Shown here: positions 55,969 to 57,710 of the stretch, piece by piece
Numbering within the stretch: position 1 is the first letter of the stretch
Layout of the letters: each line of letters starts with the position of its first letter
From: Sphingomicrobium sp.
Lineage (GTDB): Bacteria; Pseudomonadota; Alphaproteobacteria; Sphingomonadales; Sphingomonadaceae
Assembly: GCA_025450755.1 (NCBI GenBank)
Contig: JANWLR010000060.1
Span: forward strand, 1-57,710
Direction: 5' to 3'
Length of the DNA: 57,710 nt
Notes under the pieces: generated by a model
The model's input: only the letters and a program-made list of their open reading frames with translations
Databases searched by the model: none
What the model was told of the DNA's origin: nothing
Position numbers and translations under genes: made by a program

Positions 55969-56709
55969 ATGCCAGCGCTCGACAAGCATGACAGCCCATT
56001 GCCGACAACCACGGTCAAATGGCGTTTCCCGTCGGTCCATCCGGATGGGCGCAAATATGCAGTGGGAGTGGGCGGCGCGGCGCTCCTCGCTTTCATCATG
56101 CACCTGCAGATTCTCGCCTGGATTCTGATCGGAATTACCATCTGGGTCGCGGCTTTCTTTCGCGATCCGGTGCGCACGACCCCGCGCGGCGATAAGTTGA
56201 TCATTGCGCCTGCCGATGGCTTGGTCACGATGATCGCGAGAGTCGGCCCGCCTCCTGAATTGCGCGGCTCAGACGCTCTCGCCGATGGTGATTACACGCG
56301 CGTCTCAATTTTCATGAGCGTGTTCGATGTGCACATCAACCGTGCCCCGATCACCGGCCGGGTGAAGCGCATCGCTTACGTGCCGGGCAAGTTCGTCAAT
56401 GCCGACCTCGACAAGGCGAGCGAAGACAATGAGCGGCAACACATGTTGGTCGAAAGCAGCGACGGCCTCAGGATTGGCTTCACCCAAATCGCGGGCCTGG
56501 TCGCCCGGCGAATTATATCCTTCGTCAGGGAAGGTGACGTGGTCGATGCGGGGCAGCGCGTGGGATTGATCCGTTTTGGCAGCCGCGTCGACGTCTTTCT
56601 TCCGGCGGGAACGGCACCCAAGGTCCTCCTCGGGCAGCGTACGATCGCTGGGGAAACGATACTCGCTGAGATGGGCGTGGACGCGCCACTCGTCGGAATT
56701 AGTCAGTGA
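55969..56709 (+). CDS. psd: Phosphatidylserine decarboxylase proenzyme
   Basis: 246 residues, the short archaeal-type form common in alphaproteobacteria. One membrane segment (about 29-55) is followed by the domain. The self-cleavage site is Gly204-Ser205 in RFGSRVDVF; the new N-terminal serine becomes the pyruvoyl cofactor. FDVHINRAP carries the conserved histidine. It makes phosphatidylethanolamine from the product of pssA, whose GTG overlaps its stop (GTGA). Confidence 0.95.
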
Positions 56710-57473
56710 CCGACGACAGGGATCCGCGCCGGATCCCGTTTCGCGCGATGATCCCTAACGCGGTCACTGCGCTAGCGCTTTGCTTCGGATTGACTGGTGT
56801 CAGTCTCGCCATCGGCGGCCAATGGGAAAAGGCGCTTGGCGCGATCATCCTTGCCGGCGTTCTGGATGGTCTCGACGGCCGCATCGCGCGACTGTTGCGC
56901 GCCCAGAGCAAGTTCGGTGCGGAGTTGGATTCGCTTAGCGATAATATTGCGTTCGGCACCGCGCCGGCACTGATCCTTTTCCTATGGTCATTGAAGGCAG
57001 AGCCAAGGTTTGGATGGCTCGCGTCGCTAGCGCTGGCAGTTTGCTGCGCGCTTCGCCTTGCGCGTTTCAATGCCCGTCTCGACGCAGCCGAGCAACCGCA
57101 TAAGTCGGCGGGTTTCAACACCGGCGTTCCCGCTCCGGCCGGAGCCGGCCTTGCTTTCGTTCCGATCTACTTGTGGCTGATTACAGGGAACGACCGCTTC
57201 CGCGCCTGGCCCGGCGTAATGGCTTGGACGCTGTTCATCGCGATGCTGATGATCTCGAGCCTTCCGACCTATAGCTGGGCAAGCATCCGGATTCGGCCCG
57301 CGTGGCGGCTTTTCGCGCTCGCCGGAGTTGCAATTTTCGGTGCGGCGCTGATCCGGGCGCCGTGGCCGACTTTGCTCGTTCTTGCAGCCTTCTACCTGCT
57401 GATGATTCCGGTAGCATTCGCCAGCTACCAACGGGTCAGGCAGCGGCGCGCCATTGCGAGGGGCCACGGCTAG
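56706..57473 (+). CDS. pssA: CDP-diacylglycerol-serine O-phosphatidyltransferase
   Basis: 255 residues with about seven membrane segments. The CDP-alcohol signature [20 protein letters not shown], then LDSLSD, has all the aspartates. It makes phosphatidylserine for Psd. The gene's last 38 bases overlap a small convergent gene. Confidence 0.95.
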
Positions 57474-57651
57474 GCTTCGAACGCCAGCGAACCCGAACCC
57501 TCAACGTTGAGTGACCGCAGGGCCGACGCATTGGCTTGCCCTTGAGGGCAGCGGCGATCTTGGCGCCGCTTTCCTCAAGAACCGATGCACCCAGGACCAA
57601 AAGAAGCCACAATGTCGCGAGAAAGGGCAGGGTACCAAGAGCTACGGTCAT
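57436..57651 (-). CDS. Small single-pass membrane protein behind an SOS box
   Basis: 71 residues from ATG 57651 (a GTG one codon earlier is possible). One membrane helix spans about residues 3-24 (TLPFLATLWLLLVLGASVL), then a basic, arginine-rich tail. GGAGG lies 9 bases before the ATG. The upstream region carries TTGACA and a GTTC-N7-GTTC box. No family is recognised; size and topology recall SOS-induced division inhibitors such as Caulobacter SidA, but no sequence match is claimed. The tail overlaps pssA by 38 bases. Confidence 0.65.
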   Translation of the reverse strand: MTVALGTLPFLATLWLLLVLGASVLEESGAKIAAALKGKPMRRPCGHSTLRVRVRWRSKPSRGPSQWRAAA

Positions 57652-57680
57652 CACGTTCAGCCTCCATTGAGGTGAACAAT

Positions 57681-57695
57681 GTTCTCTGTTTGTTC
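57681..57695 (-). promoter_or_regulatory. LexA (SOS) box, GTTC-N7-GTTC
   Basis: GTTC at 57681-57684 and 57692-57695 are separated by exactly seven bases, the alphaproteobacterial LexA operator. On the minus strand it lies between a perfect TTGACA -35 (57706-57701) and a weak -10 (AACATT, 57683-57678), so LexA would block RNA polymerase. It could also serve a gene to the right, outside the window. Confidence 0.7.
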
Positions 57696-57710
57696 TTATC
57701 TGTCAAGTCA

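Follow-up and report, generated by a model that had tools for sequence, protein, structure and literature searches.

Introduction

Damage checkpoints that stop cell division are known in a few models. In Caulobacter crescentus, SidA is a LexA-controlled inner-membrane protein of 29 amino acids (aa) that inhibits division via FtsW (PMC4211646, PMC12700426), and cells without LexA filament because sidA is on (PMC12700426). DidA of the same organism, 71 aa long with one membrane helix, binds FtsN and is SOS-independent, being driven by DriD (PMC4211646). YneA of Bacillus, SosA of Staphylococcus and ChiZ of Mycobacterium are damage-induced small membrane division inhibitors. YneA is rapidly degraded by CtpA and DdcP, and SulA of Escherichia coli, an SOS-induced brake, is proteolysed by Lon (PMC13396833). 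Here we describe a small gene in a stretch of 57,710 nucleotides from Sphingomicrobium sp. (contig JANWLR010000060.1, positions 1 to 57,710; hereafter the window), which ends convergently with a pssA-like gene and which we put forward as a new candidate for an SOS membrane protein gene that is family-wide in the sphingomonads (family Sphingomonadaceae).

SidA resembles the small protein in its GTTC-N7-GTTC LexA control and as a tiny inner-membrane protein. SidA, which we compared by description only, has 29 aa, whereas the small protein has 52-117 aa, its basic tail is long, and it usually ends in Ala-Ala. Unlike in sphingomonads, and as a further point of difference when the locus is set against SidA, the LexA-type box was found at pssA in none of 30 genomes, each from a different alphaproteobacterial family outside the sphingomonads, that scored best among the 74 with a match. 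DidA shares with the small protein of the window its 71 aa, its single helix and an overlap with a neighbouring annotated frame, but is SOS-independent via DriD, while the small gene has a LexA-type box. YneA and ChiZ are described with extracellular LysM domains, in contrast to the predicted cytoplasmic tail of the small protein, which has no Pfam match. SulA blocks FtsZ polymerisation, whereas the action proposed for the small protein is through its membrane helix. No SulA was found in any of the 25 sphingomonad genomes searched (the E. coli control matched), so the role of a brake on division after damage appears vacant there, and the small gene is suited to fill it by its control, its size and its broad distribution.

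No description of the small gene was found in the titles or abstract beginnings of the Creative Commons-licensed literature searched; it might feature in the RegPrecise regulon tables among the hypothetical LexA targets. The gene belongs to a family that has no name and evolves fast, and that sits at a predictable position in most of the genera sampled from a large environmental family.

The LexA-type box is conserved with the small gene and pssA

An earlier note on this DNA had described a 71-residue frame preceded by a Shine-Dalgarno sequence, a TTGACA and a GTTC-N7-GTTC box, and had proposed LexA control. All four elements are in place on the minus strand (Table 1), the box in the form GAAC-N7-GAAC, a LexA-type motif equivalent to GTTC-N7-GTTC. 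Because a protein sequence search retrieved few relatives (two loci, homologues L003 and L004; 2 of 199 genomes, the source genome included), we used a positional survey instead; sequence search alone misses the family, and position together with promoter finds it. All 149 family genomes yielded rpsB, and upstream regions were taken for 80, nearly all one per genus. The first set of 84 loci comprised those 80 and four loci included because they match the protein (G077, G000, Sphingomonas segetis and S. hankyongi). A held-out set of 40 more genomes, second members of genera, was taken once the pattern had taken shape.

An exact box reading away from rpsB lay within 1 kb in 67 of the 84 loci, and one in the opposite orientation in 2. 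Where pssA adjoins rpsB (66/84), the exact box stood between the two genes in 64 loci, and the remaining two, G001 and G023, had a box with one mismatch. Without the four protein-matching loci, pssA adjoined rpsB in 62 of 80 and the exact box was present in 60 of those 62. The pattern recurred in the held-out genomes, where pssA adjoined rpsB in 36 of 40; the exact box lay within 700 bp in 33 of these 36, and frame calling gave a small membrane frame in 35. In G122 the box fell just past the 700-base limit, as noticed later, and its small membrane frame was identified by eye. Another held-out genome, G100, in which pssA does not adjoin, carries box and frame beside rpsB. Conservation of the box upstream of homologues, which the earlier note had asked for, is thus borne out.

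The note had also allowed that the box might control a gene beyond the edge of the window. The window's last 127 bases (57584-57710) match the end of contig C38 exactly (G000:C38:21503-21629), which is probably an assembly k-mer overlap at which two contigs adjoin, with rpsB coming after the window. On this join rpsB is the first gene past the edge, divergent and read away from the box, and is followed by frames that we assign to tsf, pyrH and frr. In this genome the box stands some 160 bp upstream of rpsB, as would suit a role in regulating rpsB and making ribosome synthesis SOS-responsive, but the -35 element and the box both point away from rpsB. Loci in which the two genes have separated are also informative. 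When pssA does not adjoin rpsB, the box was found beside rpsB in only 3 of 18 loci. A strong pssA match was present elsewhere or farther off in 16 of these 18 (in G024, G078 and G089, rpsB lies within about 3 kb), and the box was kept on the small-gene side of pssA in 13 of the 16; the frame in G024 stops about 0.9 kb before pssA. Because the box is retained at pssA and mostly absent at lone rpsB, it appears to serve the small gene, and regulation of rpsB is very improbable.

We found lexA in 30 of 30 genomes tried, above the cut-off in 29, and a GTTC/GAAC-N7 box beside lexA in 29 of 30, the source genome among them, which identifies this motif as the LexA box in sphingomonads. The small gene therefore has the conserved promoter GTTC-N7-GTTC box of a LexA-regulon member. 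The regulatory part of the earlier note holds up, SOS control of the small gene is well supported by these promoter comparisons, and the gene is very probably under LexA control. Two or three tandem LexA-type boxes stand upstream of the small gene in G077 (L007:1430-1480), G002, G014, G041, G085, G020 and G121.

The small frame encodes a predicted single-pass membrane protein

Frames were called by position and shape with an open reading frame (ORF) caller whose start range was anchored on the box and which required a hydropathy of >1.6, so that the presence of a helix is not independent evidence. This gave 115 frames, 79 from the first set and 36 held-out; the fragmented locus of G025 was omitted. 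As a control, a second caller anchored on the pssA stop found membrane frames at 77 of the 82 first-set loci, 34 of 36 held-out loci and 8 of 30 loci from other families, and frames ending in Ala-Ala in 69, 29 and 0 of 30, respectively.

The frame evolves as a coding sequence: the pooled ratio of nonsynonymous to synonymous substitution rates (dN/dS) was 0.44 in 19 of 35 within-genus pairs (those with a proportion of synonymous differences, pS, <0.6), with the last 30 codons excluded. The small frame is conserved as a protein, as the earlier note had also asked, with 115 frames called in the family. These are 52-117 aa long (median 79), and the helix begins near residue 3. No N-tail carries a net positive charge, and 111 of the 115 C-tails have a net charge of at least +3; under the positive-inside rule, this places the N-terminus outside and the C-terminus inside. 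AlphaFold2 placed one main helix at residues 8-38 (72-aa form), with low overall confidence; over the three sequences modelled, the mean predicted local distance difference test score (pLDDT) was 63 and the predicted template modelling score (pTM) 0.30, values at which the helix alone is usable. Hydropathy, charge and the AlphaFold2 helix agree on a small single-pass membrane protein, and the frame almost certainly encodes a membrane protein.

Pfam yielded no family for any of the 79 members scanned, the SulA model PF03846 included, and PHROGs no match for the five proteins tried. Two NCBIfam matches, to holin_phiLC3 (E 0.00085) and FecD (E 0.0054), involved one member each and were judged chance matches to a membrane helix. 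A GAKI(A/R)AA segment after the helix is common to the window protein's relatives in S. segetis, S. hankyongi and G077.

LexA control and a small single-helix form are also common to DinQ, and a membrane-active toxin or membrane-potential modulator of the TisB/DinQ kind would slow energy metabolism after damage rather than division. Type I toxins tend to be patchy in distribution. The small gene, in contrast, sits at a fixed locus in nearly all genera sampled, has no second copy in its own genome by protein search, and encodes a long basic tail; moreover, 40 aligned leaders gave no consensus RNA structure (antisense RNA was not searched for). We consider such a toxin unlikely here.

Antisense pssA codons match the C-terminal Ala-Ala

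The small protein ends in Ala-Ala in 101 of the 115 frames (71/79 in the first set and 30/36 held-out), against a background of 8 in 163 long ORFs (5/50 and 3/113). The 3' ends of the small gene and the pssA-like gene overlap by 38 bp in the window, and the two share a common overlap phase in 106 of 113 loci; the 7 out-of-phase loci were left out of the codon counts, and G068, G040, G087 and G030 out of both the codon and the Ala-Ala counts. A pssA Arg codon facing the stop and last codon of the small gene is AGG in 56 of 56 cases; in the rest of pssA, AGG makes up 54 of 1480 Arg codons. With any CGN codon at that position the stop would be lost. Facing the penultimate residue, the pssA Arg codon is CGG in 84 of 90 cases and never CGC (0 of 90), while elsewhere CGG accounts for 464 and CGC for 667 of the 1480. 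We give this test without a P value, species being non-independent.

We considered whether the Ala-Ala end is simply imposed by the antisense pssA sequence. The last Ala is partly forced by a pssA Lys or Arg codon. The penultimate Ala is not, as the common CGC would yield Gly there and never occurs, so this explanation was rejected. The codon bias instead points to selection on the small protein's terminal Ala-Ala, and its plain reading is that synonymous pssA codons (the rare AGG, and CGG over CGC) fit the small gene's stop and penultimate Ala. The locus would then be a clear case of an antisense overlap shaped by the small gene, the C-terminus of one partner setting the synonymous codons of pssA.

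Two alternatives start from the same overlap. The SOS transcript could act as an antisense RNA into pssA, lowering phosphatidylserine synthesis after damage and leaving the frame secondary; the convergent 3' overlap in its fixed phase and the way the box goes with pssA would fit. Against this, purifying selection acts on the part of the frame that lies outside the overlap, G006 and G100 retain box and frame beside rpsB with no pssA there, and the pssA codons appear tuned to preserve the end of the small protein. We regard an antisense role as improbable. Alternatively, what the protein acts on at the membrane may be PssA or phospholipid synthesis instead of the divisome, as its lasting linkage to and overlap with pssA might suggest. 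That linkage may merely reflect the overlap, however, and is missing in G006 and G100, so that this option too is rather improbable, if somewhat less so.

C-terminal Ala-Ala is read by ClpXP, and the source genome's own transfer-messenger RNA tag, ANDNEALALAA, also ends in Ala-Ala. A literature search on the reading of C-terminal Ala-Ala by ClpXP returned nothing. With a selected Ala-Ala at its C-terminus, the protein has the mark of an ssrA-like degron, and we think it probable that this end is a degron, a candidate for a ClpXP-type protease.

A candidate SOS-controlled division inhibitor

We propose that the small gene encodes a LexA-repressed, single-pass inner-membrane inhibitor of septation that is cleared via an ssrA-like Ala-Ala degron and is present in nearly all sampled sphingomonad genera; we put the probability of this reading at roughly 0.55. 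LexA bound between the -35 and -10 elements would block transcription of the small gene. DNA damage would remove LexA, and the protein would be made; the motif, its position and its conservation are as reported above, and induction is expected from them. The short N-terminal helix would insert the protein with its N-terminus out and direct the basic, proline-rich tail to the cytoplasm. Septation would be halted through the membrane helix, by analogy with SidA, DidA and YneA. The Ala-Ala end would make the protein a substrate for a ClpXP-type protease, releasing the brake once LexA repression returns. This reading predicts LexA control, filamentation and Ala-Ala-dependent turnover.

Several observations weigh against this proposal. 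The division target is proposed by analogy rather than from any tie to FtsW, FtsN or FtsZ. Single boxes arise by chance, and the window has 2 copies of GTTC-N7-GTTC against 1.90 expected; as the box alone is no rarer than chance, conservation has to decide. A stringent sigma-70 consensus scan found no promoter pair, and the -10 element is weak. Box or frame is missing in some genomes: G095 and G144 have the frame and no exact box, G050 has no exact box at pssA, and no clear copy of the small gene was seen at pssA in G040, G087 or G068 (which has the box there). Neither box nor frame was found beside rpsB in the other three held-out genomes with no adjoining pssA, G140, G106 and G155, where pssA was not searched, and G030 (L095) has only a 35-codon frame after the box. 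Single-pair dN/dS ranged from 0.10 to 0.92, with two within-genus pairs at 0.80 and 0.92, and 14 of the 115 frames do not end in Ala-Ala. Mean column identity is 17% in the 79 aligned members, so that what unites distant members is position, promoter and shape, not sequence.

Because of the analogy with SidA, DidA and YneA, and the failure to find SulA in the genomes searched, a division role is the likeliest of several for the protein, and on balance we believe it to be a division inhibitor. The 35-codon version in G030 (box at about 986 of L095, on the pssA-antisense strand) has a helix and an Arg run with no long tail, and is near SidA in size.

Features of the window

The coordinates of the locus are collected in Table 1. 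The nearest named relatives of the source genome are S. segetis and S. hankyongi. The pssA-like gene matches TIGR00473 with an E value of 4e-26 and 92 bits, below the curated cut-off of 107. The composite TTGAC-N6-GAAC-N7-GAAC has one exact locus in the source genome, present on two contigs; allowing one mismatch adds two further sites, and a reversed control pattern also gave two.

Table 1. Coordinates of the small gene, its promoter elements and the convergent pssA-like gene in the window
Feature	Position	Strand	Basis or remark
-35 element TTGACA	57701..57706	-	sequence; composite exact at one locus of the source genome, recurs in relatives
LexA-type box, GTTCTCTGTTTGTTC, also written GAACAAACAGAGAAC	57681..57695	-	between -35 and -10
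Candidate -10 element AACATT, weak	57678..57683	-	17 nt after TTGACA, read from sequence
Shine-Dalgarno GGAGG	57661..57665	-	9 nt before ATG, read from sequence
Small membrane protein gene (predicted)	57436..57651	-	71 aa from ATG 57651, 72 aa from in-frame GTG 57654; stop 57436-57438
Predicted transmembrane helix, about residues 3-25, N outside/C inside by charge	57577..57645	-	hydropathy, charge, AlphaFold2
C-terminal Ala-Ala codons, candidate degron	57439..57444	-	Ala-Ala end in 101/115 and pssA codon test
pssA-like gene (phosphatidylserine synthase), convergent	56706..57473	+	TIGR00473 match at 56766-57167

Leader sites in relatives

Sites with at most one mismatch to TTATCCACA, which we take to be the DnaA box consensus, occur between box and start in 51 of 110 leaders, for example in L016 (G008), L017 (G009), L026 (G021) and L176 (G104); the mean in shuffled sequence was 1.43 sites. 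In 182 kb of loci, 21 of 23 exact copies of TTATCCACA fell within the 9.7 kb of leaders. By eye, the sites often seem to form direct repeats in the aligned leaders (alignment A3), spaced about 11 bp. No such site is present in the 29-nt leader of the window or in the window's nearest relatives. In a PssA tree, whose bootstrap had not settled, one supported clade of 52 has the sites in 39 of its members; the label is more clustered on the tree than in all 500 shuffles, yet needs 15 changes. We infer that DnaA may control the small gene in the relatives with these sites. A wider scheme, in which a family-wide SOS division brake has a proteolytic timer kept by the pssA codons and is wired to DnaA in one large clade via the TTATCCACA-like sites, is doubtful; if true, DNA damage and replication state would meet at one septation switch.

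The leader motif was also considered as an RNA structure and set aside, no consensus pair being found in 40 aligned leaders (40 of 46 listed, 6 having been removed by hand, out of 110 in all); the rpsB leader region had no match in Rfam. In the 40 long leaders, a GGAAC half-site lies about 15-25 nt downstream of the LexA box (A3 columns about 28-32), with several columns at least 90% conserved, and is possibly a second LexA contact.
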